Shown here: in pieces, positions 22,986 through 63,268 of the stretch
Position numbering within the stretch: position 1 is the first letter of the stretch
Layout of the letters: each line of letters opens with the position of its first letter
NCBI GenBank assembly: GCA_030682475.1
Contig: JAUXOA010000077.1
Coordinates: 1 to 64,000, forward strand
Length of the DNA: 64,000 bases
Source of the DNA: Rhodoferax sp.
GTDB lineage: Bacteria; Pseudomonadota; Gammaproteobacteria; Burkholderiales; Burkholderiaceae_C
Direction of reading: 5' to 3'
Made by a program: the position numbers and the translations under genes
The notes under the pieces: generated by a model
What the model saw: the letters and a program-made list of their open reading frames with translations, nothing else
Told to the model about the DNA's origin: nothing
Database searches by the model: none

Positions 22986-24587
22986 ATGCCAAGTCAAGTT
23001 CACCCCAGCCCTGTGCCAAGTCAATGGTTGCGCTCCTACCTGCTGCTGACGGCCGGTCTTTGTGGCGCCATCGTGATGGTGGTCGAAGTGCTTGGATCGC
23101 GCGTCATTGGCCCATTTTTCGGTGTTTCCCTGTTTGTCTGGACCTCGCTCATCACGGTGACCCTGGTGGCGCTGGCGCTGGGCTATGCCTTCGGCGGCCG
23201 TTTGGCCGACCGTACCGAGTCGCCCGCCCTGCTGTATGCCATTGTGCTGGCGGCCGGTTTGTGTGTGTTGGCGGTCCCGCTGCTGCAAGCCGTGGTGCTC
23301 AAGGCCTGTGTTGGTTTGGGCTTGCGTCTGGGCTCGCTGCTTGCCTCGGCCGTGCTGTTCGGGCCGGCGCTGTTCCTTTTGGGCTGCGTCTCGCCGCTGC
23401 TGGTTCGCCTGCTGGCCAATGAAATGAAAAGCCTGGGACGCACGGTCGGCGGACTGTATGCCTTATCAACTGCCGGCAGCTTTGTCGGCACCGTCGCCAC
23501 CGGCTTTTTCCTGATTGGGGTGCTGGGCGTGAGCCGGATCTTCCTGCTGTCCGGCGCGCTGCTGTGCGCGCTCGCGGCCACCTATTTTTTCGCGTTCCGG
23601 CGTCAAAGATTACTGGGCTTGGTTGCCATGCTGTTGCCGCTTGGCCTGTTTCTGATACCGTCAGACGCGCTGCCATCCAAAATACTGGTCGATGGCACGC
23701 GCGCCACTGTCATTGAAAAACGCGACAGCTTTTACGGCAACCTGCGAGTGGTGGACTACCAGGCGGGCGAGCGCCATACCCGTGAACTGGCGATCGATGG
23801 ACTGATTCAGGGTGGCGGCGACGTAGCGACCGGTCTGTCGGTCTACGAGTACCCTTACCCCATGCAATTTCTGCCCGTCGCCCTGCACCCGGACGGGCGC
23901 AGCAGTTTGGTCATTGGACTCGGTGCCGGGTTCATTGCACGCTGGTACGCTGCGCGCGGCATTGAAACGGAAGTGGTTGACATCGATCCAGCGGTGGTCG
24001 ATCTGGCACGCAAGCACTTCAATTTTCCAGCAACCATCCCAGTGCATATCGAGGATGCGCGGCACTTTCTGGCCCAGAGCAAGAAAAGTTTTGACTACAT
24101 CGTGCTCGACGTCTTCAACGGCGACACTACGCCCGGCCACCTGCTCAGTGTCGAAGCCATGCGGCTGCTGGCGCAGCGCCTCAAGCCACAGGGCGTGTTG
24201 GCGATCAATCTGATCGGCAGTCTTCGGCGCGAGAATTTCATGACGGCCTCCGTGATCCATACACTGCAAACGGTGTTCGACCAGGTGCAGATCATCCCGC
24301 TGATCCGGGACGTGGCCCAGCAGCAAAGCGGGAACCTGGTCGTGCTGGCCTACCGCGGGGCCCAGCGCAGTTCTAATAGTGCCGCCTACGCGCAGGAGCC
24401 GGTCCATCCGATGGCCCGCGACTTGGTCACCCACGCCTTGCAAAAACGATTCAGTTTCCCCGTCGACACCCCGGCGATGCTGCTGACCGACGATTTCAAT
24501 CCGATTGACCTGCGCGACCTGTGGATGAAGGAGGAGGTTCGCAGCAACATCCTGGAGACGACCGACCTTGACATTTTGTTGGGTTAA
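22986..24587 (+). CDS. Membrane-anchored spermidine synthase-like protein
   Basis: A 533-residue fusion of an N-terminal membrane domain (about seven or eight hydrophobic segments up to residue 220) and a C-terminal spermidine-synthase-type methyltransferase-fold domain. The nucleotide-binding part is VIGLGAGFIARWYAARGIETEVVDIDP and the DARHFL/DYIVLDVFNGDTTPGHL segment matches the family. Such fused proteins are widespread, and their aminopropyltransferase activity is usually unproven. The gene ends in a four-base overlap with the convergent cytochrome gene, and marks the left boundary of the cytochrome locus. Confidence 0.85.
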   Translation: MPSQVHPSPVPSQWLRSYLLLTAGLCGAIVMVVEVLGSRVIGPFFGVSLFVWTSLITVTLVALALGYAFGGRLADRTESPALLYAIVLAAGLCVLAVPLLQAVVLKACVGLGLRLGSLLASAVLFGPALFLLGCVSPLLVRLLANEMKSLGRTVGGLYALSTAGSFVGTVATGFFLIGVLGVSRIFLLSGALLCALAATYFFAFRRQRLLGLVAMLLPLGLFLIPSDALPSKILVDGTRATVIEKRDSFYGNLRVVDYQAGERHTRELAIDGLIQGGGDVATGLSVYEYPYPMQFLPVALHPDGRSSLVIGLGAGFIARWYAARGIETEVVDIDPAVVDLARKHFNFPATIPVHIEDARHFLAQSKKSFDYIVLDVFNGDTTPGHLLSVEAMRLLAQRLKPQGVLAINLIGSLRRENFMTASVIHTLQTVFDQVQIIPLIRDVAQQQSGNLVVLAYRGAQRSSNSAAYAQEPVHPMARDLVTHALQKRFSFPVDTPAMLLTDDFNPIDLRDLWMKEEVRSNILETTDLDILLG

Positions 24588-25654
24588 GGCCTGTGGCCGG
24601 TGGTCGATGGTCCCGTCGCCAACGGATGAAAGGCCCGCGCGATGTAGGCGATGACGGCTTGAATATCCGGTTCCGGCAACACCGATTTCCAGGCCGGCAT
24701 CGAGGTCTCGGGCAAGCCATCCCGAATCACGACGGCCAGACGCTCGCGCGTCATGCCGGACATGAAGGCCGCCTGGGTTAAATCACGTGGGTGCGGCTCC
24801 AGGAAGCTGCCGATCCAGTTGCGCCCGGTGCCGTCAGCAGCATGACAAAACGCGCAATTCTGCTGGTAGAGCGCTTCGCCACGTTGTTCCTGCTTTGACA
24901 AGCCTGCAAGCTGCGGCACTTTGTCATGCAGAGCATAGGGTGTGGCGCTCGTGATGGCGTCCACTTTGGGCCCATCGCCCGGTGAAGCACGGCCAGGCGA
25001 AGCGTAATTGTCGCCCGGTGAAAATCCGTTGCGTGGATACGAAAGCGGGCGCAAGTCCCAGGGTGCACCCGGTTCACTCACTTTTGAGCGGTCATGGCAA
25101 CTGACGCAGCTTGCCATGTACAAGCGCCGACCGGCTCTTTGCTCCGGCGTCATTTGTTCGACTGGGGCGTCGATCGCGATTATTCCAGTCGCAAACGGGA
25201 AGGCAGCAGCGTAGCGTTGGTGATCCGGCCAGCCATTTTCTGGTGTGTGGTAGCGCGTGTTGGTCGCTTTGTCAACCATGAATTCCTGGCGTACGAAGTC
25301 TGTCACGGCCGCTATTTCGTTCGGCTGCAATATCCCTTTGAAACCCAGCATGGCGGTGCCGGTGCGCCCGTTTGTGACGGCGTCCAGCATTTTCTCCCGG
25401 CTTATTTGCTCGACTGAAGTGGCGATGAAATCGCGCGGACGCGGAGCGAGGTAAGTGCTGGCCAGGGTCTGCGCATCGCCTGAATAGCCGTGGCAGAAAT
25501 AGCAGCGGAAATTGTAGATCCGTCGTCCCCACTCATGCTCCGCAGACGCGGCAGAAGGAGCGATCGATATTTGGGGCGCTGGCGCTGTTGGCGGTGGCGG
25601 ATCAGAACACGCCGCCAGCGCCACTACCAGCATCAGTAAACGCAGGCTTCTCAC
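24584..25654 (-). CDS. Triheme c-type cytochrome lipoprotein
   Basis: A 356-residue lipoprotein: the leader ends in ALAAC, giving a lipidated cysteine near residue 16. Three class I-like cytochrome domains carry CYFCH, CVSCH and CAFCH, with domain patterns such as RRIYNFRCYFCHGYSGD and LYQQNCAFCHAADGTG. Met ligands are plausible at NGRTGTAMLGF and ETSMPAW. It probably moves electrons at a membrane surface in the periplasm or outer membrane. It is coupled (ATGA overlap) to the triheme gene upstream, and both follow the sigma-54 promoter candidate at 26918-26934. No catalytic partner domain is visible. Confidence 0.88.
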   Translation of the reverse strand: MRSLRLLMLVVALAACSDPPPPTAPAPQISIAPSAASAEHEWGRRIYNFRCYFCHGYSGDAQTLASTYLAPRPRDFIATSVEQISREKMLDAVTNGRTGTAMLGFKGILQPNEIAAVTDFVRQEFMVDKATNTRYHTPENGWPDHQRYAAAFPFATGIIAIDAPVEQMTPEQRAGRRLYMASCVSCHDRSKVSEPGAPWDLRPLSYPRNGFSPGDNYASPGRASPGDGPKVDAITSATPYALHDKVPQLAGLSKQEQRGEALYQQNCAFCHAADGTGRNWIGSFLEPHPRDLTQAAFMSGMTRERLAVVIRDGLPETSMPAWKSVLPEPDIQAVIAYIARAFHPLATGPSTTGHRP

Positions 25655-26823
25655 TGTTTCGCAGCATTCGCTGACTTCGGGTTGCCTGCGCCTGGCTGGA
25701 TGAAACGTTGAAATACGAATTCGCTGACATTGGCGATTTCCTGCGGACTCAGCACCTTGTTCCAGGCTGGCATATCGGTGCCCAGTTTGCCCTCCGAAAT
25801 CATTTCGAATAGCTCGACACGATTCAACATCTGGCGCGACGCGGGATGCAGAAAATCGCGTGGTTTCGGATTGATGAAATAGGCCCGCGGTCCGCGACCG
25901 TCGCCGGTCTTGCCGTGGCAGGTGGCGCAGTTATCCAGGTAGAAAGCCTCGCCCTTGGCCACGTTGCCTTTCAGGCCACTCGGCATGGGCTCCGACATCT
26001 TGGTCCCGACATGTTTATGAATGTGTCCGGTCGCTGGCTTTGGGGCGCTCGCGGCCATCGCCGTCGTCGCTGCCTTGGGTTCATCCGGCGCCGCCTGACG
26101 CCGGGCATTGCTGATTCCAGAAATGCCATCCGTGCTCGCCATGAAGCCTTCGCGGACGTAATCCACCACGGCGCTGATATCTTCCTGGCTGAGCTGGGTT
26201 TTGAAACCGGCCATCGCCGTGTTCGGGCGTCCAAAGGTGACCGAGGTGATCATGCGTTGTTGCGTCATTACGGCGCTTGCGCCAGGGGCCGTGAAATCGC
26301 GCGGCGGTGGATTCAGGCTGTTTTGTGCGCGGCTGCGGCCATCGCCTTTTTCGCCATGGCAGACCGAGCAATTCTTGCTATATACGATGCGCCCGCGGCT
26401 GCTGTCGGGGTTGGCGGAGGCCGGCATGAAGGTATTGCGCACATAGTCCACGACGGCTTCGATCTCCTTCTGGGTGAGCTGGATTTTCCAGGGCGTCATG
26501 GCGGTGCCGGCGCGGCCGTTTTTCACAGCGTCGATCATGCGCTCGCGCGTCTGTTGGGCGGCAGCCGGCTTTGTGAAATCGAACGGCGGCGGATTCAGGC
26601 TGTTTTGTGCGCGGCTGCGGCCATCGCCTTTGTCGCCGTGGCAGACCGAGCAGTAATTGTGATAAAGGACAGCCGGGCGGATCTCTCCCTTGGACGTGCT
26701 ATGGGAGCCCGCCATTGCCGGCGAAAAGCTGCCCGCGATCCAGAGCAGCAACAGACAGGCGAAGCGACGATAGGCGAGTGGCAGCGGGGTGCGTGCGAGG
26801 GAAAACGGTCTGATTCGGGTCAT
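25651..26823 (-). CDS. Triheme class I cytochrome c with repeated domains
   Basis: A roughly 390-residue exported protein. After the signal peptide, ending near AMA, come three cytochrome c domains with CSVCH, CSVCH and CATCH. The first two are strongly alike (GDKGDGRSRAQNSLNPPP and GEKGDGRSRAQNSLNPPP), evidence of recent internal duplication. Met ligands are likely at GTAMTPW, NTAMAGF and TDMPAW. A His/Pro/Ala-rich linker separates domains two and three. It is the first gene of a two-gene operon with the lipoprotein cytochrome. The open frame extends upstream to 26961, but the signal peptide begins at the ATG at 26823, and the longer version would overlap the sigma-54-type promoter. Confidence 0.88.
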   Translation of the reverse strand: MTRIRPFSLARTPLPLAYRRFACLLLLWIAGSFSPAMAGSHSTSKGEIRPAVLYHNYCSVCHGDKGDGRSRAQNSLNPPPFDFTKPAAAQQTRERMIDAVKNGRAGTAMTPWKIQLTQKEIEAVVDYVRNTFMPASANPDSSRGRIVYSKNCSVCHGEKGDGRSRAQNSLNPPPRDFTAPGASAVMTQQRMITSVTFGRPNTAMAGFKTQLSQEDISAVVDYVREGFMASTDGISGISNARRQAAPDEPKAATTAMAASAPKPATGHIHKHVGTKMSEPMPSGLKGNVAKGEAFYLDNCATCHGKTGDGRGPRAYFINPKPRDFLHPASRQMLNRVELFEMISEGKLGTDMPAWNKVLSPQEIANVSEFVFQRFIQPGAGNPKSANAAKQ

Positions 26824-29305: not shown

Positions 29306-30421
29306 ATGGAAAAACACACTTTGCGCCGGACCATGCTCGGCTTTCTCCAACTGGTCGGCATTGCGCTGCTGGCCGCTTGCGCGGCACCGCCCCAAGCCAC
29401 CAAGGCGCCAGAAATTCCGGTCTTTCCGCCGCCGCCGGAGGAAGCACGCTTCTTCTACGAGCGCACCCTCTACAGCAGTGCCGATGTCGTCAAGGAAGAC
29501 AAAAACGCCGCCCTGCGGCGGCTGCTGCTGGGGGAAACGAGAGTCGGCGAAGGCTTGGGCAAACCCTATGGCGTCGCGGTCTACCATGGCCGTGTCTTTG
29601 TCAGCGACACGGCGCAGGGCTCGGTCGCGGTGTTTGATATTCCGGGCCAGCGCTTTTACCGGATCGGCGACGGCGACGGCCTTGGCAGGCTGGGCACACC
29701 CTTCGGTCTTGACGTCGATGGCAAGGGCAATCTGTACGTGGTTGACAACGCGGCCAAACTGGTTCAGGTTTACGGCCTGGACGGCAAACACCTGCGTACC
29801 TTGGCCAGCGGCGGAAAATGGTTTGTGCGTCCCTCCGGCATCGCAGTCGATGCCGAGGGCAGCCGCATTTATGTGGTGGACAGCGGCGGCATCAGCAGCG
29901 ACGAACATCGGGTGCGCGTGTTCGACGCCCAAAGCGGCCAGCATTTGCTGGATTTTGGCAAACGCGGCTCGGAACCGGGCGAGCTGAATTTACCGCGCGA
30001 CGTGACGATTGGCAAGGATGGTTTGCTGTATGTGGTGGACGGCGGCAATTTCAGGGTCCAGGTGTTCCGCCCGGATGGCACGTTTGTGCGGGTCTTCGGC
30101 GGCATCGGACGCCAGGGCGGACAATTTTCCCGGCCCAAGGAAGTGGCCACCGATCCGCAGGGCAACGTCTATATCGTCGATACTGCCTTCGGCAATTTCC
30201 AGATCTTCACGCCCGAGGGCAAGCTCTTGTTGTCGGTTGGCAGCCGGTCCGAGCGGGACGGCATGGCCAAATACATGCTGCCCTCCGGCATTGCGATCGA
30301 TGGCGACGGTCGCGTTTACATGGTGGACCAGTACTTCAGCAAGGTCGATATCTACCGGCCGGCCAAGCTCGCTGCCGATGCCGGCTTTACCGTGAAGAAG
30401 GAAGCGGTCATCAAAAAATAG
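29306..30421 (+). CDS. NHL-repeat beta-propeller lipoprotein
   Basis: A 371-residue lipoprotein: leader LVGIALLAAC gives the lipidated Cys near residue 25. The mature part is a six-bladed NHL propeller, with repeated units such as GVAVYHGRVFVSDTAQGSVAVFD and PKEVATDPQGNVYIVDTAFGNFQIF, covering residues 85-355. Such propellers usually act as binding scaffolds rather than enzymes. Two further NHL proteins (38921, 39909) are in the locus, both close to cytochromes. It lies just before the tetraheme gene, separated by a hairpin and regulatory sites. A role in assembly or docking of extracellular cytochromes is plausible but unproven. Confidence 0.8.
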   Translation: MEKHTLRRTMLGFLQLVGIALLAACAAPPQATKAPEIPVFPPPPEEARFFYERTLYSSADVVKEDKNAALRRLLLGETRVGEGLGKPYGVAVYHGRVFVSDTAQGSVAVFDIPGQRFYRIGDGDGLGRLGTPFGLDVDGKGNLYVVDNAAKLVQVYGLDGKHLRTLASGGKWFVRPSGIAVDAEGSRIYVVDSGGISSDEHRVRVFDAQSGQHLLDFGKRGSEPGELNLPRDVTIGKDGLLYVVDGGNFRVQVFRPDGTFVRVFGGIGRQGGQFSRPKEVATDPQGNVYIVDTAFGNFQIFTPEGKLLLSVGSRSERDGMAKYMLPSGIAIDGDGRVYMVDQYFSKVDIYRPAKLAADAGFTVKKEAVIKK

Positions 30422-30433
30422 CAGCGTTATTTT

Positions 30434-30465
30434 CCCGAAAACAGGAACGGATTCCTGTTTTCGGG
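30434..30465 (+). terminator. Perfect 14-bp stem hairpin after the NHL lipoprotein gene
   Basis: CCCGAAAACAGGAA (30434-30447) pairs exactly with TTCCTGTTTTCGGG (30452-30465) around a four-base loop. No T-run follows, so it may be an mRNA-protecting hairpin or a weak, Rho-assisted terminator. It separates the NHL gene from the tetraheme promoter. Confidence 0.6.
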
Positions 30466-30514
30466 AGCAGGGGATCGCGAGAAAGGAAAGAATCCTCTTT
30501 TAACGCCAAAATGT

Positions 30515-30528: not shown

Positions 30529-30536
30529 ACATATAA

Positions 30537-30553: not shown

Positions 30554-30637
30554 TAATTGAAGTGGACGAGTCAAAATCAACGCACTGGGTTTGGTTTTAA
30601 TCCATGACTATGTAAATACAGAAAGGCGGGTGGCAAA

Positions 30638-31507
30638 ATGATGAACAAATCTTTGTTAAAAGGCGTCATGACACGAGGGGTCGGCAGTGTGGCCATCTTG
30701 TTATTGACCATGGGGGTCTTTGGCAGTCAGCAGGCCTTGGCTGCGATCGCAGGCGGGAAGCATGATCTGACCCCGACCGGGAGTGCTACAAACAAGTTCA
30801 CTGCTACTGCTGCTGGTGCCACTGAAATCTGCGTCTTTTGCCATACACCGCACGGCTCGGCTTCTACTGCTGAACTGCCCTTATGGAACCGCACGGCGTC
30901 GGCGGGTGCTTACACGACCTACAACACCTTGGGCACTTCCAGTCTGGATGGCGCAACCGCAGCAGTCGGTTCCGTGTCGCTCGCCTGTCTTTCCTGCCAT
31001 GACGGCGCGACGGCCATGAACACCATGGTCAATGCGCCGGGCTCGGGTCTCGGGGGTGGCGCTTATTCCGGCACTTGGTCTGCCGGCACCGGCACGATGG
31101 CGGCGGGGATTGCCAATCTCGGTAAGGATTTAAAGAATGACCATCCGATCGGCATTCAATACGGCGGCGGCATGGCAGGCAACGTCGCATATACGCAAGC
31201 CGCTATTGGCGATGGCGGTTTTAAGGATACTGATTTTAAAGGCGTGCAATTCGCAACTTTGAATAGTCAGCCGCTATGGTGGGTCGATACTGGAGGAGCA
31301 GGGCGTCAGAAGACCGACCTGATGCTCTACACGCGGACTGGTGCGTCCGCAACTCCAGCCGGCACGAGCACTGCGGCGATTACCCTTGCCGGAGCTCAGG
31401 CTTTTGTTGAGTGCGCAAGTTGCCACGATCCGCATAGCACCAATACAACCTTCCTGCGTATCTCCAATGCCGGAAGCGCAGTGTGCCTGGCTTGCCATAT
31501 CAAGTAG
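30638..31507 (+). CDS. Secreted tetraheme cytochrome, OmcE-like nanowire candidate
   Basis: A 289-residue exported protein with a signal peptide ending around residue 36 (QQALA) and four heme motifs: CVFCH 65-69, CLSCH 117-121, CASCH 259-263 and CLACH 283-287. Conserved surroundings are KHDLT, CVFCHTPHG, PLWNRT, DHPI, CHDPH and FLR. The four-heme count, size and CVFCHTPH/PLWN/DHPI layout recall extracellular OmcE-type filament cytochromes; that assignment is from memory and needs structural checking. The 11-heme protein at 40988 begins with a homologous four-heme module. The gene has its own sigma-54-type promoter and terminator, suggesting high and separately controlled expression. Confidence 0.85.
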   Translation: MMNKSLLKGVMTRGVGSVAILLLTMGVFGSQQALAAIAGGKHDLTPTGSATNKFTATAAGATEICVFCHTPHGSASTAELPLWNRTASAGAYTTYNTLGTSSLDGATAAVGSVSLACLSCHDGATAMNTMVNAPGSGLGGGAYSGTWSAGTGTMAAGIANLGKDLKNDHPIGIQYGGGMAGNVAYTQAAIGDGGFKDTDFKGVQFATLNSQPLWWVDTGGAGRQKTDLMLYTRTGASATPAGTSTAAITLAGAQAFVECASCHDPHSTNTTFLRISNAGSAVCLACHIK

Positions 31508-31537
31508 TAGATAATTGATTGTTGCTTGACCATCGAG

Positions 31538-31622: not shown

Positions 31623-32597
31623 ATGAGACTCCTACCGAATTATTTTTCGAGAGCTGTGTTGCTCTCGTTGGCGTTGCTGGCTGCCACCGCCGCCGCCGCA
31701 CAGTCGGCTGTTTTCGCCAAAGTCGGCGACGTCGTGATCACGCAGGACGACTACAACGCAGCGTTCAGCGTCGCCTCACGCGGCAAGTTCTACCATGGCA
31801 AACCGCCCGAAAACGAAGTCGCTTTGCTGCAGCGTGAAGTGGGCGAACAGATGGTCGCGCGCATCCTGCTGCTGCGCGAAGCCAAGCAGCGCGGGCTGCG
31901 TGCGGACGCCGCCGAGATTCAAAAAACGCTGCAAAGCTACGAGCAGCGCTATGCCAGCAGCGAGCAATGGAAAAAGAACCGGGCGCAGGCCTTGCCACCC
32001 TTGCAGGCTCGCCTGGAGCAGGAAGACCTGCTGAGCCAGCTTGAAAAGACCGTGCGCTCAAGCGCGAAACCGAACGAAAAGCAGGTCAAAGCCTATTATG
32101 CGGCGCATCAGGTCAAGTTTACCGAGCCCGAGCAAATGCGCGTCTCGGTGATATTGTTGAAGGTTGATCCATCGGCCACCAGCGCTACCTGGAAAAAGTC
32201 CGATGAGCAGGCGCAGGCACTTGCCAAACGGGTACGCGCCGGAGAGGATTTCGCGGCGCTGGCGCGCCAGCATTCCGGCGATGGCTCGGCGCAGCAGGGC
32301 GGCGATATGGGTTATCTGCACAGTGGCATGCTGCCCGAAGGCACCCAGGAGGCGCTGTCCAAATTAAAAACCGGCGAGATCAGCGATTCGCTGCGTTTGC
32401 TGGAAGGGTTCGCGCTATTTCGGCTGACCGACCGCAAGGCCGCCCAATTGCATGGGTTTGATGCGGTCAAAGTACGGGCCCAAGAATTAGCACAGCGCGA
32501 GCAAAGCGACGCCGCCTGGACGGCCTTCGTGGCGGAGCTGAAAACGAAGACGCCGATACAGATTGACCCGTCGCGCTTTTTGCCGCTGGCCAGGTAA
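31623..32597 (+). CDS. Periplasmic parvulin-type prolyl isomerase
   Basis: A 324-residue exported protein: signal peptide to about residue 26 (AAAAQSA), an N-terminal chaperone-like helical region related to SurA/PrsA (residues 30-165), and a parvulin rotamase domain at about 175-270 (QMRVSVILLKVD, then AGEDFAALARQHSGDGSAQQGGDMGYLHSGML). It likely helps fold exported proteins, probably the beta-barrel encoded next or extracellular cytochromes. It starts the long gene run after the tetraheme terminator. The beta-barrel gene begins 22 bases downstream, which supports a dedicated chaperone-client pair. Confidence 0.88.
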   Translation: MRLLPNYFSRAVLLSLALLAATAAAAQSAVFAKVGDVVITQDDYNAAFSVASRGKFYHGKPPENEVALLQREVGEQMVARILLLREAKQRGLRADAAEIQKTLQSYEQRYASSEQWKKNRAQALPPLQARLEQEDLLSQLEKTVRSSAKPNEKQVKAYYAAHQVKFTEPEQMRVSVILLKVDPSATSATWKKSDEQAQALAKRVRAGEDFAALARQHSGDGSAQQGGDMGYLHSGMLPEGTQEALSKLKTGEISDSLRLLEGFALFRLTDRKAAQLHGFDAVKVRAQELAQREQSDAAWTAFVAELKTKTPIQIDPSRFLPLAR

Positions 32598-52909: not shown

Positions 52910-54166
52910 ATGGTGCAATTGAACAAGAAATCTATCGTCATCATCGTGGCCGGGGTAGTTGGCGTGGCGGGCTTGATTAGCGGCGCCTATTACGCCGGTC
53001 TGAAACAGATGTCCAAATCGCAGGGTACCGCGTTGCAGTTGCCGGTTGCCGGGCAGTTGAAAGCGGGTGAGCAAATGTCGCCGAATCATCCGGCGACGAA
53101 CACGCAGGGCGGACCGCAGCAGCAAGGCAAGGTGCAAGTCGACCCGAACGCTAAATTCACCCACTTTCGCGTCGGTAACCGCAATGTCAAATCGATGCTG
53201 CTGGATGGTAAATTGCTGTGGGTCGGCACCTCCGGCGGTGTGATTCGGTATGACACCAGTACCGACGACTATCGCTTGTTCGACTCCCGCAACGGCTTGC
53301 TGTCGAACGGCATATTTCACGTCAGCAAACTGGACGGCAAGATACTGGTCGGCACCTATGGCGGCGGCATGTCCTTGTACGATCAAGCCAAGGACACCTG
53401 GGAAAACTTCAATATCCCCGACGGCCTGGGCGATGCGTTCGTTTATGGCGCGCTGAAGGTGGCCAACGGTGACGTTTGGGTGGCAACCTGGTCGGGCGCC
53501 AACCGGATACGCGGCGGCGCGCTCAAGGATCGTTCCAAGTGGGATCTGTTCACGGTTGAAAACACCAAAGGTGGTTTGCTCAACGACTGGGTGTATGGCG
53601 TCGCCGAAGGCAAGAACGGTGAAATATGGATGGCAACCGAAGGCGGTCTGGTGCGCTACAAGGATGGCAAGTGGGACAACTGGAATCACGCCAAGGGCTT
53701 GGGTGCACCGTTTGACAAGGTCAAGGACGACATCAAGTTCAACAACGACCCGGCACAGGTGTCCGCGCATCATGCCAAGCAAAAAGAGGAAATGGGGTTG
53801 CAGGGCGTGAGTGTCGCTTACAACCCCAATTACATTATCGCGCTACAGGTGGACCGCGATGGCGTTGTCTGGGCCGGTACCTGGGGCGGTGGCCTGGCCC
53901 GTTTTGACGGCAAGACCTGGCGTAACTACACGGTTGCGGACGGTTTGCCCGGCAACCATGTGTTCATGCTGCATCAGGATGACAAGGGCGTGCTGTGGAT
54001 CGGCACCAACAATGGTCTGGCACGGCGCGAAGGCGATAAGTTTGTCGTCATGACGACCGAACAGGGTCTGTTTTCGAACAATGTGTTTTCGATGGCGACC
54101 GGTGCTGGCGGTGACCAGTGGATTGGCAGTTTTGGCGGCGTTGCACATTTGAAGCCGGGCAAATAA
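52910..54166 (+). CDS. Membrane-anchored Reg_prop beta-propeller protein
   Basis: A 418-residue paralogue of the previous protein. An N-terminal hydrophobic segment (IVIIVAGVVGVAGLISGAYYAG, residues 9-30) is followed by a flexible Gln/Pro-rich stretch and propeller blades with the WVGTSGGVIRYD and GGVWAGTWGGGLARFDG-type consensus. The anchor is not cleaved by a clear signal peptidase site. An insert of about 40 residues (KVKDDIKFNNDPAQVSAHHAK) precedes the last blades. AAGGAA precedes the ATG. The pair may act as sensor or docking platforms in the inner membrane and periplasm. Confidence 0.82.
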   Translation: MVQLNKKSIVIIVAGVVGVAGLISGAYYAGLKQMSKSQGTALQLPVAGQLKAGEQMSPNHPATNTQGGPQQQGKVQVDPNAKFTHFRVGNRNVKSMLLDGKLLWVGTSGGVIRYDTSTDDYRLFDSRNGLLSNGIFHVSKLDGKILVGTYGGGMSLYDQAKDTWENFNIPDGLGDAFVYGALKVANGDVWVATWSGANRIRGGALKDRSKWDLFTVENTKGGLLNDWVYGVAEGKNGEIWMATEGGLVRYKDGKWDNWNHAKGLGAPFDKVKDDIKFNNDPAQVSAHHAKQKEEMGLQGVSVAYNPNYIIALQVDRDGVVWAGTWGGGLARFDGKTWRNYTVADGLPGNHVFMLHQDDKGVLWIGTNNGLARREGDKFVVMTTEQGLFSNNVFSMATGAGGDQWIGSFGGVAHLKPGK

Positions 54167-55366: not shown

Positions 55367-56002
55367 ATGACTTTGCAGGCGTATCAGCTTGCTTGCACAC
55401 GTGGCGAGCGAGAGCTGTTCAATGACATCAATTTTGAAATCAAGGCGGGCGATGCCATGCGCGTCGCCGGCACCAATGGCAGCGGCAAGACCAGTCTGCT
55501 GCGCATGCTGTGTGGTTTGACCTATCCGGCTGCGGGAGAAGTGCGCTGGTTCGGACGTAAACTGCGCGCGGTGCGCGAAGAATTCGGCAGCCAGTTGATC
55601 TATCTCGGCCATGCCAACGGCGTGAAGGACGATCTGCTTGCATGGGAAAATGTTGTCGTCGCTTCAACCCTGTCGGGTAATCCGGTCAGCCGCGACCAGG
55701 CGTATGACGCGCTGGAGGCGCTCGGTCTGGCCCGGGCCGCTGATCTGCCAACCCGGGTCTTGTCGCAAGGGCAACGCAAACGTGTCGCGCTGGCGCGGCT
55801 GTGGCTCGGCATGCACAAGCCCTTGTGGATTCTCGACGAGCCGTTCACGGCACTCGACCAGAAGGCGGTCACGGCGCTTTGCGGCACCTTGAACCAGCAC
55901 CTTGCGCAGGGCGGTATGGTGATTTACACAACGCATCAGGAAATCGATCTCAGCGCGCAACGCTTGCTGTATCTGGACCTGAGCCGGGACGCCACATGCT
56001 GA
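55367..56002 (+). CDS. ccmA: CcmA, ATPase of the heme exporter
   Basis: A 211-residue ABC ATPase of System I cytochrome c maturation. Walker A GTNGSGKTS, signature LSQGQRKRVALARL and Walker B LWILDEPFTALD are intact. CcmA works with CcmB, CcmC and CcmD to release heme-bound CcmE. The gene overlaps ccmB (ATGCTGA) and starts the ccm run. Confidence 0.95.
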   Translation: MTLQAYQLACTRGERELFNDINFEIKAGDAMRVAGTNGSGKTSLLRMLCGLTYPAAGEVRWFGRKLRAVREEFGSQLIYLGHANGVKDDLLAWENVVVASTLSGNPVSRDQAYDALEALGLARAADLPTRVLSQGQRKRVALARLWLGMHKPLWILDEPFTALDQKAVTALCGTLNQHLAQGGMVIYTTHQEIDLSAQRLLYLDLSRDATC

Positions 56003-56664
56003 AGGCACTCAACTGCATTATTCGGCGCGACCTGCTGCTGGCGTTTCGGCGCCGCTCGGACGTGCTCACCACCTTGTTCTTTTTTGTCATTGTGGCCACT
56101 CTGTTCCCGCTGGGGGTCGGGCCGGAGGCGGCGCTGCTGCGCACGATGGCGCCGGGCATTCTGTGGGTGGCCGCGCTGCTGGCGTCGATGCTGGCGCTGG
56201 GGCGCTTGTTTGCGCTGGATTACGAAGACGGGACGCTGGAGCAAATGCTGCTGGCTGCCGAGCCGTTGACGGTGATCGTGATCGGCAAGGTCATTGCGCA
56301 TTGGCTGGTATCGGGTCTGCCCCTGGTCTTGCTGGCGCCATTGCTCGCGGTGCAGTTTGACCTGCCGCGCGAGTCGGTTGCGGTACTATTTTTCAGCTTG
56401 TTGATCGGGACACCGGTATTGAGCCTGATCGGCTCGATCGGCGCCGCGCTGACGCTTGGTGTGCGCGGTGGCGGGGTCTTGGTATCGCTGCTGGTACTGC
56501 CGCTTTACATCCCCGTTCTCATCTTCGGTGCCGGTGCAGTGGGTGCGCAAGCCAGCGGTCTCGGCAGCAGCGCACATTTGTTGTTGTTAGGTGGTGTACT
56601 GGCAGGCGCAGCGGCGCTTGCGCCATGGGCCACGGCGGCGTCGCTGCGCGTTTCTCTTGAGTAA
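55996..56664 (+). CDS. ccmB: CcmB, membrane subunit of the heme exporter
   Basis: A 222-residue protein with six predicted transmembrane segments, opening MLKALNCIIRRDLLLAFRRR, the usual CcmB start. It forms the membrane part of the CcmABCD complex. The ATG at 55996 overlaps the ccmA stop; the frame is open further upstream only through ccmA. Confidence 0.93.
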   Translation: MLKALNCIIRRDLLLAFRRRSDVLTTLFFFVIVATLFPLGVGPEAALLRTMAPGILWVAALLASMLALGRLFALDYEDGTLEQMLLAAEPLTVIVIGKVIAHWLVSGLPLVLLAPLLAVQFDLPRESVAVLFFSLLIGTPVLSLIGSIGAALTLGVRGGGVLVSLLVLPLYIPVLIFGAGAVGAQASGLGSSAHLLLLGGVLAGAAALAPWATAASLRVSLE

Positions 56665-56784
56665 CGTGGTAAAATTCCTGCCCTGCAGAGGGACAATATC
56701 TGCAATCCCGCGCGCCTGTGCTCATGAACGACTATATTGCGCCAAGCAGCCGACCGAACCCTATTTCTGGAAGCACTAGCACCG

Positions 56785-57567
56785 GTGTCTATCTCTGACA
56801 ACATCCCGTCCGATACCCGCGAATCGAGCCGTATTCACTGGTTTAAATACGCGTCGCCGCAGAATTTCTTCTCGATTTCAGGAAAACTGATTCCCTGGTT
56901 TTCCGCCATTGCTGTGATTCTTGGCGTGATCGGTCTCTACGTCGGTTTTTTTGTGGCGCCGACCGATCACCAGCAGGGCGAGGCCTACCGCATCATCTTT
57001 CTGCACGTGCCGGCGGCCTGGATGGCGATGTTCATCTATCTGGTGATGGCATTCTGGGCCGCCATCGGCCTGGCTTTCAATACGCGCATGTCATCCATGA
57101 TGGCCAGTGCGCTGGCGCCCACCGGCGCCATGTTCGCCTTCCTCGCCCTGTGGACCGGCGCACTGTGGGGCAAGCCAACCTGGGGCGCCTGGTGGGTCTG
57201 GGATGCACGCCTGACGTCCACCTTGATCCTGCTGTTCCTGTACGTCGGCTTCATGGCGCTACAGGCATCCATTGACGAGCCGCGGCGTGCCGACAAGGCG
57301 GGCGCCATACTGGCCCTGGTCGGTGTCGTCAATGTCCCGATCATTTATTTTTCCGTGCAGTGGTGGAACACGCTGCACCAGGGCTCATCGCTCAATATGA
57401 AAGACGCGCCGACCATGGCGATGACCATGCTGCTGGGCATGCTGATCATGGCGCTGGCGTTCTGGGCCTACACCATTGCCGTGACGCTGCTGCGTGTGCG
57501 CTGCATCGTGCTGGAGCGGGAACGGCACACCGATTGGGTCAAACAAACCATGGAGGCAAAAAAATGA
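56785..57567 (+). CDS. ccmC: CcmC, heme-delivery protein
   Basis: A roughly 260-residue membrane protein that transfers heme to CcmE. Six transmembrane segments and the tryptophan-rich motif WGAWWVWDARLTSTLIL are present, flanked by conserved His (LHVPAAWM, WWNTLHQGSS). A GTG at 56785 is the preferred start; an open frame extends to a TTG at 56737. About 120 bases separate it from ccmB. Its stop overlaps ccmD. Confidence 0.94.
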   Translation: MSISDNIPSDTRESSRIHWFKYASPQNFFSISGKLIPWFSAIAVILGVIGLYVGFFVAPTDHQQGEAYRIIFLHVPAAWMAMFIYLVMAFWAAIGLAFNTRMSSMMASALAPTGAMFAFLALWTGALWGKPTWGAWWVWDARLTSTLILLFLYVGFMALQASIDEPRRADKAGAILALVGVVNVPIIYFSVQWWNTLHQGSSLNMKDAPTMAMTMLLGMLIMALAFWAYTIAVTLLRVRCIVLERERHTDWVKQTMEAKK

Positions 57568-57749
57568 TCTGGGGAAGCTGGAGTGATTTTTTTGCGATGG
57601 GCGGTTACGCCCTGTACGTGTGGGGTTCGTTTGTCGTCGTCTTCGGTTTCATAGCGGGTGAAGTCATGCTACTGAAGCAGCGCGGCAAGTCGATCCGCGC
57701 ACAACTGGCCAACGCGCGCACCCCCCATGCGCCGCGCACAAGGAGATAA
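57564..57749 (+). CDS. ccmD: CcmD, small heme exporter subunit
   Basis: A 61-residue single-pass membrane protein (MIWGSWSDFFAMGGYALYVWGSF), which helps release holo-CcmE. FFAMGGYALYVW is characteristic. It overlaps ccmC by ATGA and precedes ccmE by three bases. Confidence 0.9.
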   Translation: MIWGSWSDFFAMGGYALYVWGSFVVVFGFIAGEVMLLKQRGKSIRAQLANARTPHAPRTRR

Positions 57750-57752
57750 ACC

Positions 57753-58232
57753 ATGATGAAACCAAGGCATAAACGCCTGATCCTGATCGCTACCGGGCTG
57801 GCCACGCTGGCATTGGCGGCGTGGCTGGTGCTGTCGGCGTTCCAGAAAAACATGGTGTTCTTTTTCACGCCGACCCAGATCCTGGCCGGCGAAGCGCCGC
57901 AGGGCCGCAGCTTTCGCATGGGCGGCATGGTCGAGATGGGCAGTATAAAACGGCAGGCTGACGGCATGACCGTGGCTTTCACCGTGACCGACAATGCGCA
58001 GCGCATCCCTGTCCAGTACCGCGGCATTCTGCCCGACTTGTTCAAGGAAGGAAAAGGCGTGGTGGCACAGGGCAAGATGGGCAAGGACAAGCTGTTCCTG
58101 GCCGAAGAGGTGCTGGCCAAGCATGATGAAAACTACATGCCGCCGGAAGCCGCCTATGCGCTGGAAAAAGGCAAACAGGCCAACCAAGCCGCCGGCGTCA
58201 CCGGCGGCAATCAGACCAAGGACATCAAATGA
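57753..58232 (+). CDS. ccmE: CcmE, heme chaperone
   Basis: A 159-residue membrane-anchored chaperone that carries heme covalently on a His. The anchor is residues 8-28, the OB fold follows ([14 protein letters not shown]), and the heme-binding His124 lies in [12 protein letters not shown], with Tyr128. The tail is Gln/Asn-rich. Stop and ccmF start overlap. Confidence 0.95.
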
Positions 58233-60223
58233 TTCCCGAACTCGGTAATTTCTCGTTGATTCTGGCGCTGTGCCTGGCACTGGCACAGGGCACCCTTCCA
58301 ATCGCCGGGTCCTTTCGCGGCAATGAGCGCTGGATGGCGCTGGCGCGACCGGCGGCCACCGGACAGTTCGTGTTCATTTCGATCGCGTTTGCATGCCTGG
58401 TCTATGCGTTTGTCAGCAACGATTTTTCGGTGACCAATGTCGCAACCAATTCGAATTCGACGCTGCCGGTCTATTACCGCTTTGCCGCCTCCTGGGGCAG
58501 CCACGAAGGATCCTTGCTGCTATGGACCTGGATGCTGGTGATGTGGACGTTCGCGGTTGCCCGCTTTAGCCACCAGTTGCCGGACGAAACGGTGGCCCGC
58601 GTGCTGGGGGTGATGGGATTGGTCAGCGTCGGCTTCCTGAGCTTCATGTTGTTCACCTCCAATCCGTTTGACCGTCTGCTGCCGGGCGCCGTGGATGGAC
58701 GTGACCTGAATCCGCTGCTACAGGATTTTGGCATGATCATTCATCCGCCGCTGCTGTACATGGGCTACGTCGGCTTTTCGGTAGCCTTCTCGTTTGCGAT
58801 TGCCGCGCTGATGGGCGGTCAACTCGATGCCACGTGGGCGCGCTGGTCGCGGCCCTGGACGTTGGCGGCGTGGATGTTTTTGACGCTCGGCATTTTCATG
58901 GGCAGCTTCTGGGCCTACTATGAGCTCGGCTGGGGCGGCTGGTGGTTTTGGGATGCGGTGGAAAACGCTTCCTTCATGCCGTGGCTGGTCGGCACCGCGC
59001 TGATCCATTCGCTGGCCGTCACCGAAAAGCGTGGCAGCTTTAAGAGCTGGACGGTGCTGCTCGCCATCGTTACCTTCTCGCTGTCGCTGCTCGGTGCCTT
59101 CCTGGTGCGTTCCGGCGTGCTGACCTCGGTCCACGCCTTTGCCACCGATCCGCGCCGTGGCCTTTACCTGCTGGTGTTTCTCGCGATCGTGATCGGCGGC
59201 TCGCTGCTGCTGTATGCATGGCGTGCACCCAAAATCGGTCTGGGCGGCAAATTCAGCCTGTTCTCGCGTGAATCCATGCTACTGGTCAATAACGTCCTGT
59301 TGCTGGCGGCGGCCGGCACGGTCTTGCTGGGTACGCTGTATCCGCTGCTCCTGGATGCGCTGGGCCTCGGCAAAATCTCGGTCGGCCCACCGTATTTCGA
59401 GTCGGTATTCGTCCCCTTGATGATCCCGGTTCTGCTGCTGATGGCGGTCGGACCTCTCGTGCGCTGGAAAGACGCGTCCTTCAAGGATGTTTTGCACCGC
59501 CTGCGCTGGATCGCGCTGGGCGTATTGCTGTTTGCGGTGGCCGCGGCCTTGCTGTTTGCGCCATCGCCGATGGTGGTGCTCGGCGTCACGTTCGCGGTCT
59601 GGGTCTTGCTTGCCACTGCGTCCCACCTGTTGGAGCGACTACGTCGCGCACCGGCCGGCACACCGCTGTGGAAACGGATGTCCAGCCAGCCGCGCAGTTA
59701 CTGGGGCATGCTGGTGGCGCATGCCGGTATTGGCGTGTTCGTGATCGGCGTAACGCTGGTCAATGGCCTGGAGACCAGCAACGAGGTCGTCATGCGCGTG
59801 GGCGACACCACCAGCGCCGGTGGCTATACCTTCCGCATGACCGATCTGAGGGAAATCAAGGGCCCCAACTACATTGCCGAGCAAGGGACTTTCGACGTCA
59901 CGTACGGCGATAAAAAAATTGCGACCATGGCGGCGCAGAAACGGCTCTACACGGTGCAAAAGATGCCGATGACCGAAGCCGCGATTAACCGGGGTTTTAC
60001 GCGCGACCTCTATGTATCGATGGGTGAGGCGGCCAGTCAGGACTCCTGGATTGTGCGCGTCCAGCACAAACCCTTTATCAGTTGGATCTGGGCGGGTTGC
60101 CTGATCATGGCTTTGGGTGGTTTTTTAGCGGCGTCCGACCGCCGCTATCGCATGGCTTCACGCAAGCGGCAAGCGGCCGCACCGGAAGCAGTTGGCGTTC
60201 AGCCAATCACCGCTGCAATTTAA
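58229..60223 (+). CDS. ccmF: CcmF, heme ligation subunit
   Basis: A 664-residue polytopic protein of the heme lyase complex. [18 protein letters not shown] is the tryptophan-rich motif; [17 protein letters not shown]-like helix ([13 protein letters not shown]) supplies the His ligands. About 15 transmembrane segments, normal length. CcmF joins heme from CcmE to apocytochromes with CcmH/CcmI. Confidence 0.95.
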
Positions 60224-60232
60224 GGCCGACGC

Positions 60233-60760
60233 ATGAAACGATTTCTTTTGCCGCTCGGCCTGTTCGTTGCGCTGGTCGTGTTTCTCGGTATTGGGCTGCG
60301 TTTGAATCCACGCGAGATTCCATCCCCCTTCATCGGCAAACCGGCGCCAACATTCAACTTGACGCAATTGCATGAACCCACCAAAATGATCTCGCCCAAG
60401 GATATGGCGGGGCAGGTCTGGCTGTTGAATGTCTGGGCCTCGTGGTGCGTGTCGTGCCGCGTGGAGCATCCGGTGTTGATGGACTTGGCCCGGCAGGGCG
60501 TGGTGCCCATTTTGGGCCTTAACTACAAGGACGGGCGTGACGCCGGGGTCGGTTGGTTGCGTCAGTTCGGCAATCCCTACAAGGTGTCGGCATTCGATGC
60601 GGACGGCCGCGTTGGTATTGACTACGGCGTCTATGGCGTTCCTGAAACATTCGTCATTGACAAGCTCGGCGTGATCCGGATGAAGCATATTGGTCCGGTG
60701 AGCACCGAAGACATCAATAACAAAATCCTACCTTTGATTAAAGAGTTGAACCGTGCGTAA
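60233..60760 (+). CDS. ccmG: CcmG/DsbE thiol-disulfide protein
   Basis: A 175-residue membrane-anchored thioredoxin-like protein. Active site WASWCVSCRVEHP and the GVYGVPETFVIDKLGVI segment with the cis-proline fit CcmG/DsbE. It keeps CxxCH cysteines reduced for heme attachment. It overlaps ccmH by eight bases. Confidence 0.94.
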   Translation: MKRFLLPLGLFVALVVFLGIGLRLNPREIPSPFIGKPAPTFNLTQLHEPTKMISPKDMAGQVWLLNVWASWCVSCRVEHPVLMDLARQGVVPILGLNYKDGRDAGVGWLRQFGNPYKVSAFDADGRVGIDYGVYGVPETFVIDKLGVIRMKHIGPVSTEDINNKILPLIKELNRA

Positions 60761-61223
60761 ATTATTTTTTGGCTGTTTTTTTGCGCTATTGACTGCGCTC
60801 ACCCATGCCGGTGAAGCGCAACCGGTCGCCGCCAACCCGGCACTGGAAAAGCATGTCATGGCGATCGCCGAAGAGTTGCGCTGCCTGGTGTGTCAGAACC
60901 AGACCATTGCCGACTCGAGCGCCCCGCTGGCAGTCGACCTGAAAAATCAGGTGCGCGAAAAGCTCGAGCAAGGTATGTCGGACAAAGACATTCTCGACTA
61001 CATGGTGCAGCGCTACGGCGATTTTGTGCTGTACCGGCCACCGGTCAAGGTCACCACCTGGCTGCTCTGGTTCGGACCTTTTTTATTGCTGATCGGCGGC
61101 ATTGTGTTTCTCGGCCTGAAGCTGCGCCGTGGCCGTCCGCACGTTGATGCATTGCCGCAAGCCCAAATGCAGCGCGCCTCAGATCTGCTGCGCGCCACTC
61201 CCGAGATGAAAGAGACCCAATGA
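60753..61223 (+). CDS. ccmH: CcmH, thiol-disulfide component of the heme lyase
   Basis: A 156-residue protein with signal peptide, the active site LRCLVCQNQTIADS and a C-terminal membrane anchor (WFGPFLLLIGGIVFLGL). Equivalent to CcmL or the N-terminal part of E. coli CcmH. It binds apocytochrome and hands it to CcmF/CcmI. Confidence 0.95.
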   Translation: MRKLFFGCFFALLTALTHAGEAQPVAANPALEKHVMAIAEELRCLVCQNQTIADSSAPLAVDLKNQVREKLEQGMSDKDILDYMVQRYGDFVLYRPPVKVTTWLLWFGPFLLLIGGIVFLGLKLRRGRPHVDALPQAQMQRASDLLRATPEMKETQ

Positions 61224-62479
61224 CCGTATTTTTGATTGTCGCTGCGCTGTTGCTGGCCGCTGCCCTGCTTTTTGTTTTGCCGACGCTGCTGCGTAAAACG
61301 GCTGTTGTAAAGCCCCATGCGTTGCGCGATGAAGTCAATCTGACGGTGCTGCGCGATCAGTTGCGCGAACTCGATGCCGATCTGGCGGCCGGTACCATTA
61401 ATGCACCGGCCTATGAGAGCGCAAGGCAGGAACTGGAAAGACGCGTGGCCGAAGACGTGCAGCCCGGTGTGGCGAGCACCGGAGCCACAGCGGACAAGCG
61501 CTGGACTGCGGTGGGGGTCGGCCTGAGCGTACCGCTCGTTGCCGTGTCGCTGTATTTGTTGCTGGGCTCGCCCGCTGGACTCGACCCGACAAAGGTCACC
61601 GCACCGCAGGATCAAGCGCACGCGGTGACCGAGGAGCAGATCATCAACATGATTGGCGCCCTCGCACAGCGCCTGCAGAAGGAACCCGACAATGCGGAAG
61701 GCTGGAGCATGCTGGCGCGTTCTTACAATGCACTGGGTCGCTTCGGTGATGCCGCCGATGCCTATGGGCGCCTGGTGAAATTGGTCCCCGGCGACGCCGG
61801 TCTGCTGGCCGATTACGCCGACACCTTGGCCATGTCGTTGAACAAAAGCCTGCAAGGCGAGCCAGAAAAACTGATCGCCCGTGCATTGGCCGCCGACCCG
61901 AAAAATATCAAGGCGCTGGCCTTGTCCGGCAGTGCCGCATTCGAGCGGCGCGACTATCAAGGTGCCGTTACGCAATGGAAAAAAATTCTGCTGCTGGTGC
62001 CGCCGGAGTCTGATATCGCGCGTTCGACCGTGAACAGCATCGGCGAGGCGCAAGCTCAGGCCGGCCAAGCGGCCAGCGCGCAAGCACCGATGGCTGCAGC
62101 AGCAAGCGCACCGACAGCGGTGGCTGCTGGGGCCGGCGTCGAAGTTGCAGGGACGGTCGAACTTGACGCTGCCTTGCGCTCCAAGGTTGCCGCTACCGAC
62201 ACCGTCTTTATCTTCGCCCGCGCTGCGCAGGGTCCGCGTTTCCCCTTGGCGGTCTTGCGCAAGCAGGTGAAAGATCTGCCGGTGAGCTTTGTGCTCGATG
62301 ACAGCATGAGCATGGTTCCCGATGCCAAGCTGTCGGGCTTTCCGATGGTGGTGGTGGGCGCGCGTATTTCGAAGTCGGGTAGTGCCACACCCAGTGCCGG
62401 TGACTTCGAGGGCGTGACCGAGCCCGTGCGTCCCGGCGCGAAAGGTCTGAAAATCCGGATCAGTTCGCAGCGTCAATAG
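61220..62479 (+). CDS. ccmI: CcmI, TPR protein of cytochrome c maturation
   Basis: A 419-residue apocytochrome chaperone. Two N-terminal membrane segments (about 4-22 and 95-115) and TPR repeats (NAEGWSMLARSYNALGRFGDAADAYGRLVKL and following) are followed by a C-terminal domain with PRFPLAVLRKQVKDLPVSFVLDDSMSM. Length and layout match CcmI. It overlaps ccmH by ATGA. Confidence 0.92.
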   Translation: MTVFLIVAALLLAAALLFVLPTLLRKTAVVKPHALRDEVNLTVLRDQLRELDADLAAGTINAPAYESARQELERRVAEDVQPGVASTGATADKRWTAVGVGLSVPLVAVSLYLLLGSPAGLDPTKVTAPQDQAHAVTEEQIINMIGALAQRLQKEPDNAEGWSMLARSYNALGRFGDAADAYGRLVKLVPGDAGLLADYADTLAMSLNKSLQGEPEKLIARALAADPKNIKALALSGSAAFERRDYQGAVTQWKKILLLVPPESDIARSTVNSIGEAQAQAGQAASAQAPMAAAASAPTAVAAGAGVEVAGTVELDAALRSKVAATDTVFIFARAAQGPRFPLAVLRKQVKDLPVSFVLDDSMSMVPDAKLSGFPMVVVGARISKSGSATPSAGDFEGVTEPVRPGAKGLKIRISSQRQ

Positions 62480-62545
62480 ACGGCTTGCTAATTTCCGGGT
62501 TTTATACTCACAGCCATGCCTCACATTAGCAAAGGTCCTTACCCC

Positions 62546-63268
62546 ATGAACACGCGTATCCTGGCCGCGCTGGCCATCTTTGCCAGTTCGCTTCTTCTTG
62601 TTAGCGCCTGCGGACAATCCAGCCCGCCCGAAGCAGACGGCAAAGCACAGCCACTACCCGCCGCACCGCCAGCCCAATCTTCTCCAGCCCAAGCGGCAGC
62701 TACAGTGGCCCAAGTGCCGCCAGTTGCAGCACCGGAAGCGGCGGCACCGATTTTCGCTGCGGTCGCACCGCCAGCCGTCGCCCGACTCGCAAAATCCGAC
62801 AGGCTGGTGATTCAGGGTTTTGCCTCCCCGGTGCCTGCCGCCTGGACACCAACGCAACCGGGCAGCGCCATGCGCGTTGCCCAGTTTGCCTTGCCACCTG
62901 CTGGCGGCGCTGAGGCTGGCGAACTTGTTGCATTTTTCTTCCCGAAAGGGCAAGGCGGCAGTCATGACGCGAACATCGAGCGCTGGGCCTCGCAATTTGC
63001 CACTGCCGACGGCAAGCCGGTGGCACCAAAAATCAGCACCAGCAAAGGTGGCGACATCGAGGTCACCCTGGTGGAGCTACAGGGAAGCTATGCGCGCGGT
63101 GTGGGCATGGGACCGACTGGTGATGTCAAGCCGGATCAAACGCTCATGACGGCACTGGTGGAGACATCGATTGGCCGTATCACCTTGCAGATGTATGGCC
63201 CGAGCAAAACCATATCGCCCCAACGCGACAATTTCATCAAGCTCGCCAAAGGCTTCCGCCCGGCTTAA
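62546..63268 (+). CDS. Pro/Ala-rich lipoprotein with conserved C-terminal domain
   Basis: A 240-residue lipoprotein (lipobox LLVSAC). A Pro/Ala/Gln-rich stretch (residues 25-80) leads to a C-terminal domain with SAMRVAQFALP, GGSHDANIERWASQF, VTLVELQGSYARG and a final LVETSIGRITLQMYGP, a pattern I have seen in uncharacterised exported proteins of several phyla. Function is unknown. The ATG at 62546 begins the leader; 62516 is an alternative. It ends the plus-strand array. Confidence 0.7.
   Translation: MNTRILAALAIFASSLLLVSACGQSSPPEADGKAQPLPAAPPAQSSPAQAAATVAQVPPVAAPEAAAPIFAAVAPPAVARLAKSDRLVIQGFASPVPAAWTPTQPGSAMRVAQFALPPAGGAEAGELVAFFFPKGQGGSHDANIERWASQFATADGKPVAPKISTSKGGDIEVTLVELQGSYARGVGMGPTGDVKPDQTLMTALVETSIGRITLQMYGPSKTISPQRDNFIKLAKGFRPA

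Follow-up and report, generated by a model that had tools for sequence, protein, structure and literature searches.

A probable undecahaem electron transfer (Uet) locus in a Rhodoferax genome, with an OmcE-type cytochrome and a ResB-CcsA-TPR companion

Nine cytochrome genes lie within 24584-63268 of the window, the whole 64,000-nucleotide stretch of Rhodoferax sp. contig JAUXOA010000077.1 (assembly GCA_030682475.1) analysed here, and they raise the question of which electron transfer system they serve. A preliminary description made from the sequence alone took them for a probable self-contained extracellular electron transfer (EET) unit with no recognisable MtrCAB, PioAB or Cyc2 type protein. 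Its count was confirmed: the nine proteins carry 3, 3, 4, 3, 4, 3, 3, 11 and 1 CxxCH motifs, 35 in all, while 500 residue shuffles of 36 proteins gave a mean of 0.08, a total of at most two and at most one per protein. The genes are nearly gapless, as it had said, with a coding density of 96%. Pfam and NCBIfam likewise bore out its prolyl isomerase, propellers, two maturation systems and sigma-54 pair, with calls for a PPIase, three NHL and two Reg_prop proteins, ResB, a CcsA-type protein, a COX1-like protein, Ccm A-C and E-I, and an NtrC-type response regulator with its kinase. To that description we add a third NHL protein, encoded ahead of the 4-haem gene, an O-antigen-ligase protein with TPR repeats, and the placing of the first two cytochromes on the minus strand.

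The locus is recognisable as Uet because its content and order match published descriptions of that system (PMC10734462, PMC12575090), and the idea of an unrecognised EET type was rejected on that ground. Uet stands for undecahaem electron transfer, a cluster described for Candidatus Tenderia and Gallionella, and carries the name uetABCDEFGHIJ (PMC12575090). The system was first named in Tenderiales and is described as a porin-multihaem complex of an undecahaem UetJ, an extracellular tetrahaem UetA and three periplasmic tri-haem cytochromes, UetDEG, together with the prolyl isomerase UetB, the barrel UetC and the NHL proteins UetHI (PMC10734462). It is thus a kind already named but little studied. 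We place the core in the window at 29306-47399, and consider it likely that our best explanation as a whole holds, namely that this core is a Uet porin-cytochrome locus and a real EET locus. Its features are as follows.

29306..30421, plus strand: NHL beta-propeller lipoprotein upstream of UetA (family match)
30638..31507, plus strand: UetA, 4-haem OmcE-type cytochrome (PDB 7tfs and 9yuq matches; His conservation)
31656..32597, plus strand: UetB, SurA-like PPIC-type prolyl isomerase (family match)
32620..34569, plus strand: UetC, predicted outer-membrane beta-barrel (structure model)
34605..35048, plus strand: UetD, tri-haem c7-type cytochrome (families and motif count)
35057..36097, plus strand: UetE equivalent, class-I mono-haem domain fused to a c7-type tri-haem domain
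36094..37047, plus strand: secreted protein with weak TPR and YfdX matches
37056..37979, plus strand: UetF equivalent, periplasmic and TPR-like (TPR match weak, E 0.0048)
38020..38526, plus strand: UetG-like 1, tri-haem c7-type cytochrome (family match)
38541..38903, plus strand: UetG-like 2, tri-haem c7-type cytochrome (family match)
38921..39916, plus strand: UetH, NHL propeller (family match)
39909..40991, plus strand: UetI, NHL propeller; residues 21-24 read by eye as an LSGC lipobox
40988..43597, plus strand: UetJ, undecahaem cytochrome (869 aa) with N-terminal OmcE-like module
43555..44571, plus strand: ResB-like protein, system II cytochrome c synthesis (family match)
44572..45384, plus strand: CcsA-like protein (Cytochrom_C_asm), system II (family match)
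45453..47399, plus strand: haem-copper oxidase (HCO)-like membrane domain fused to a C-terminal TPR, lacking the helix-VII CuB His pair

From UetA to UetJ the order is 4-haem cytochrome, prolyl isomerase, barrel, 3-haem, 4-haem, secreted protein, TPR-like protein, 3-haem, 3-haem, NHL, NHL and 11-haem cytochrome. An undecahaem UetJ is thus preceded by UetA, UetB and UetC and by two NHL proteins (H and I), and in the place of the tri-haem cytochromes D, E and G and the TPR protein F stand four small cytochromes, of which one carries an extra mono-haem domain, and a protein with a weak TPR match. As far as they are described, the Tenderia and Gallionella systems share with the window the 4-haem protein, prolyl isomerase, barrel, tri-haem proteins, TPR protein, two NHL proteins and 11-haem protein in the same order. 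In Tenderia the tri-haem genes are Tel_16515, 16520 and 16530, with the TPR gene Tel_16525 between them, and the undecahaem gene is Tel_16545; the three tri-haem genes were among the most highly expressed at the cathode (PMC5371394). We assigned uet letters to these locus tags by gene order, so the correspondence is presumptive, and the likeness to Tenderia is one of published description, as no Tenderia-titled record is among the loci of our UetJ scan. Compared with the ten named genes, the window has one tri-haem and one secreted protein more, a mono-haem domain fused to its second small cytochrome, an NHL lipoprotein upstream and an HCO-TPR fusion downstream, differences judged from later descriptions, so that some may belong to the founding one. 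UetJ and its porin are also reported in Leptothrix-group genomes (PMC13386937), and UetC in four of six Gallionella genomes by the authors of PMC10734462. What we add to these accounts is the link between UetA and OmcE, the UetJ module, the ResB-CcsA-TPR companion, the HCO-TPR fusion without CuB, a 28-strand prediction for UetC, and an MtrB-type cluster and RuBisCO in the same genome.

The order recurs well beyond this contig. A scan of genome contigs with a UetJ alignment left 79 loci from the best-scoring 80 of at least 575 confirmed stretches, the sample behind the upstream and downstream locus counts that follow, and their record titles point to Alpha-, Beta- and Gammaproteobacteria and Magnetococcales and, for a few, to other groups. 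The recurring arrangement is UetA, UetB, UetC, small cytochromes, TPR, NHL, UetJ, ResB, CcsA and TPR. Among the 50 loci whose sequence extends 7.5 kb or more upstream of UetJ, UetC is found in 38, UetB in 37, an NHL protein in 45 and at least two small cytochromes in 39. Downstream coverage of 5.5 kb is available for 54 loci; the 34 of these that have UetC carry ResB (30), CcsA (29), TPR (26) and the HCO-like domain (8), and the other 20, some of them cut upstream, carry them in 12, 7, 9 and 3 cases. ResB-CcsA-TPR is, on this gene-order evidence, a conserved companion of UetJ. Within the order to which the window belongs the spread of UetJ is patchy, with a match at E 1e-30 or better in 15 of 399 genomes, the window's own included, and in 13 of 159 genera. 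Sphaerotilus mobilis DSM 10617 has UetA, UetC and UetJ within about 12 kb. The UetB, UetC and UetJ frames of Ramlibacter montanisoli are split in the list of open reading frames.

UetC has no Pfam family and no MtrB_PioB match; the barrel seen in the preliminary description is supported by a structure model with a mean pLDDT of 86.6, a pTM of 0.69 and, by our own count, 28 long strands. A Foldseek search of the PDB with this model returned TonB-type receptors and MtrB (6r2q_B, rank 5, E 3.6e-8, TM 0.39). We read these matches as evidence that UetC is a large barrel, predicted to lie in the outer membrane, and not as evidence of kinship. The locus resembles MtrCAB, MtoAB and PioAB in setting a large barrel beside multihaem cytochromes, but UetC lacks an MtrB_PioB family match and the locus has no decahaem protein. 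The MtrB_PioB-family porin and decahaem MtrA expected of an MtrCAB or MtoAB system are not found in it.

OmcE is a filament cytochrome, a building block of the protein 'nanowires' of Geobacter. UetA matches OmcE (PDB 7tfs) at E 3.1e-26 over residues 25-176 and 253-289, and matches 9yuq, another solved multihaem cytochrome, at E 2e-29. Like OmcE it has four CxxCH motifs and, in matching places, four further His available for bis-His ligation. Across 40 rows, the window and 39 distinct UetA selected for having four CxxCH, His42 is conserved in 90%, His72 in 95% and both His169 and His266 in 100%. The OmcE match of UetJ (E 1.2e-17) covers residues 15-248, a segment with three CxxCH, and the eight His of UetA line up with the UetJ of the window, including the fourth haem site, which suggests that the OmcE-like module of UetJ is complete. 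Homology and ligand conservation together identify UetA as an OmcE-type 4-haem cytochrome and UetJ as an 11-haem protein with an OmcE-like module at its N-terminus. Our literature search, a narrow one that did not take in the founding Uet description, turned up no paper linking UetA with OmcE, and no second UetA, apart from the UetJ module, was found in the genome of the window (94% complete). In OmcE filaments one haem is ligated across the subunit interface (PMC12954529). UetA, which differs in being partnered with a barrel and with UetJ, may form a filament of this sort, which the N-terminal module of UetJ could join as terminal subunit.

The strongest competitor to this proposal is that UetA does not polymerise and is a monomeric secreted or surface cytochrome, making Uet an ordinary porin-cytochrome conduit. 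From its second to its third haem site UetA is longer than OmcE by about 40 residues; PMC10734462, where it describes UetA, calls it an extracellular tetraheme cytochrome only, and we saw no filament data for Uet. With the significant homology to a filament subunit and all eight His kept on the other side, we give the monomeric alternative a chance that falls only a little short of even.

ResB and then a CcsA-family protein follow UetJ without a gap. The set resembles system II in having both family proteins and a thioredoxin-like lipoprotein, its function being read here from the genes themselves, and differs from it in a conserved TPR partner and, in some loci, an HCO-like protein. The HCO-like protein of the preliminary description does have a COX1-like family match, yet it is not a stand-alone protein, being fused to a C-terminal TPR. 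This fusion occurs in the window and in four other distinct loci (L024, which is the same as L117; L030; L040; and L052), and in the remaining loci the HCO-like gene is separate or absent. We therefore rejected the notion that HCO-TPR is one conserved protein; the TPR is the widely conserved part. The fold is that of an HCO: against ba3 oxidase subunit I the profile scores E 1.5e-15, and the structure model gives a Foldseek E of 1.4e-10 with a TM of 0.67 on the target. His61, His204, His334 and His336 are invariant in 15 rows and align with His of ba3 that we take to be its haem and CuB ligands. Unlike ba3 subunit I, the family has no helix-VII His-His at the aligned place in any of 18 HCO-like rows (15 from Uet loci and three from oxidase clusters), whereas both true COX1 rows of the same alignment have it. 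One oxidase-cluster row (G323) has three His a few positions later, and in L060 and L095 a His-His occurs outside the places shown in our comparison. The three CuB histidines of a catalytic HCO are therefore incomplete; because CuB is missing, oxygen reduction is unlikely, and a terminal oxidase was rejected.

The HCO-like family is wider than Uet, matching in 36 of 399 genomes of the order at E 1e-15. Thirty-four of these exceed 390 bits, 26 of them in genomes with no UetJ match, and the two weak matches are probably true oxidases. The window's own genome has a second CuB-less HCO-like gene on another contig (C81; L138:5880-14888), between two cytochrome b-type proteins, one with ferredoxin-like (Fer4/FlpD) and the other with FAD and 2Fe-2S (Fer2/FAD) domains; the cluster also has a COX1 that keeps its His-His, COX2, UbiA-family and SCO1 genes. 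For the protein in the window a role with cytochrome maturation is modestly favoured because of its position and fusion. The main rival makes the protein an electron-carrying link, in the inner membrane, with the quinone pool or the respiratory chain. The presumed low-spin haem His pair and a His on the other haem side are kept, and the close relative between cytochrome b-type proteins in the COX1/COX2/SCO1 cluster points the same way; the protein adjoins ResB-CcsA and is fused to TPR, however, and with the domain in only eight of the 34 UetC-bearing loci such a link cannot be obligatory. We rate its chance clearly below even.

The host genome bears on the direction of electron flow. It has a RuBisCO (429.5 bits; a 489-residue frame with GLDFMKDDE, which we take to be an active-site motif) and an MtrB_PioB porin (511 bits). 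The porin gene lies on contig C19 (L144:5175-10591) between a 10-CxxCH frame and a 689-residue 8-CxxCH frame with a cytochrome b561-type domain, and on this gene content the cluster is a separate Mtr/Mto-like one. The earlier statement that no MtrCAB-type protein is present accordingly holds for the locus and fails for the genome, where an MtrB-type porin stands beside a decahaem cytochrome. These genes suggest that the host is an autotroph and has another extracellular electron route besides Uet. The RuBisCO, the MtrB-type porin and the Tenderia and Gallionella relatives make electron uptake, with Fe(II), minerals or cathodes as the source, the likelier direction, though not a settled one; caution is called for because an undecahaem cytochrome is cited for a Mn(III)-reducing Dechloromonas. 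If flow were outward, the locus would serve the reduction of extracellular Mn or Fe. That organism, Candidatus Dechloromonas occultata (PMC13264449), and a Dechloromonas metagenome-assembled genome (MAG; L060) that has UetA to UetJ with ResB, CcsA, HCO and TPR are in keeping with this, whereas Tenderia is a cathode oxidiser (PMC5371394, PMC12575090) and the window's genome holds RuBisCO and the MtrB-type cluster. We think outward flow the less likely of the two.

Several points weigh against this explanation of the locus. The Tenderia undecahaem gene is unchanged with electrode potential, and the change of the tri-haem genes between two potentials is non-significant (PMC5371394). UetC matches MtrB weakly, among hits to TonB receptors and generic barrels, filament formation by UetA is a proposal drawn from homology, and family scans of the locus genes named no inner-membrane quinone partner. 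UetC is not seen upstream of UetJ in 12 of the 50 upstream-covered loci; in at least two of these, L075 and L096, tandem UetJ copies push UetA-C past the fetched stretch. A Polaromonas MAG has a lone extra UetJ, close to that of the window, among unrelated genes (L050:9923-12487), and in Aromatoleum/Azoarcus-type loci (L081, L078 and L101) about 6 kb separates two diverged copies of UetJ, while the fetched stretch shows no UetA-C. When six named records (L067, L107, L050, L087, L081 and L060) were searched whole, UetA was found in all six and UetC in five. UetA and UetC lie elsewhere in the genome in Polaromonas L050, where they are far from the lone UetJ, and in A. tolulyticum L087; the A. 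evansii draft (L081) has UetA and no UetC match in such a search. Because UetA and UetC were found elsewhere, the lone copies are weaker evidence against the model: in two of the three cases searched whole, the lone UetJ looks like an extra copy in a Uet-bearing genome, and we dropped it as proof that UetJ works without UetA-C. The UetJ family may have a further use besides the Uet locus. An outer-membrane or extracellular electron transfer role, as first described, remains the best reading of the locus, and no assignment of its genes to a known, purely periplasmic pathway was found.

Around the core the window carries further genes of the stretch.

24584..25654, minus strand: tri-haem lipoprotein cytochrome, three class-I domains, divergent neighbour (families and motif count)
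25651..26823, minus strand: tri-haem cytochrome, three class-I domains (families and motif count)
26983-29166: O-antigen ligase (Wzy_C) carrying TPR repeats, immediately upstream of the locus
47396..47986, plus strand: thioredoxin-like lipoprotein
47973..49478, plus strand: sensor histidine kinase
49475..50869, plus strand: sigma-54-dependent response regulator
50937..51500, plus strand: Sel1-repeat protein
51497..51814, plus strand: mono-haem class-I cytochrome
51814..52902, plus strand: Reg_prop propeller 1
52910..54166, plus strand: Reg_prop propeller 2
54200-55240: ApbE flavin transferase lipoprotein, after the Reg_prop genes and before Ccm
55367..62479, plus strand: Ccm system I genes CcmA, B, C, E, F, G, H and I
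62546-63268: last lipoprotein, no Pfam family

How far the locus extends was judged from contigs of the window's taxonomic order that reach far enough to include each gene. UetA and UetC are each present in nine of ten, and the upstream NHL lipoprotein has a match to the NHL0 model in eight of nine. The models of the two minus-strand tri-haem cytochromes match upstream in six of nine (24584..25654) and seven of nine (25651..26823), and gene maps show the pair adjacent and divergent in four loci (L028, L038, L039 and L042). Downstream, the histidine kinase occurs in four of 11 relatives; the sigma-54 regulator, Sel1 protein, mono-haem cytochrome and Reg_prop 2 each in four of ten; and Reg_prop 1 in three of ten. 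CcmF is near Uet genes in two of five relatives; the Ccm block, a general maturation system, adjoins Uet only in some loci. ApbE accompanies the locus in one of nine relatives and the O-antigen ligase gene in none of nine, so neither is a conserved part of it. OmcE is described as glycosylated (PMC9473688); the ligase was rejected as a glycosylation partner, being in 0/9 relatives, while a broader count of 0/108 says little, since the flanks of most loci end sooner. One relative, G216 (L033/L034), has the genes from UetJ to the small cytochromes and no UetA, UetB or UetC match upstream, unlike its genus mate (L035/L036). A consensus scan for sigma-54 promoters gave no support, since its one site with at least 9 of 11 positions matching lies within uetC and on the minus strand. 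That the unit is self-contained, as first proposed, is not supported, given the general Ccm system, the inconstant ligase and ApbE genes and the lack of a canonical inner-membrane quinone-linked cytochrome in the family scans. That the stretch is a chance assembly of cytochrome genes and not one functional unit is extremely improbable: the ligase and ApbE do fail to accompany it, but the A-to-J order with ResB-CcsA recurs across classes.

Under the Uet reading, the small c7-type cytochromes would relay electrons through the periplasm and, by way of UetC, to UetJ, and UetA would be exported with help from UetB and the propellers. The ResB-CcsA-TPR-thioredoxin set would mature the haem load of the locus, and the kinase and sigma-54 regulator would control expression where present. 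A bolder version, in which Uet is an OmcE-type filament with its own export and anchoring, UetC as portal, UetJ as terminal subunit and ResB-CcsA-TPR (with the CuB-less HCO in some species) as a dedicated haem-loading unit, is tentative, and we hold it doubtful.

How cytochrome filaments are secreted, anchored and redox-coupled is described as largely unresolved (PMC12307469, section 5.4). The locus shows an HCO fold without CuB joined to a TPR beside cytochrome-maturation genes, and the OmcE link yields a small gene set in which a barrel adjoins proteins that may be a filament subunit and its terminal subunit. With its UetA, UetC and UetJ, the named strain Sphaerotilus mobilis DSM 10617 makes the idea testable. 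If it is true, Pseudomonadota would have a gene set for the anchoring and secretion of cytochrome filaments.

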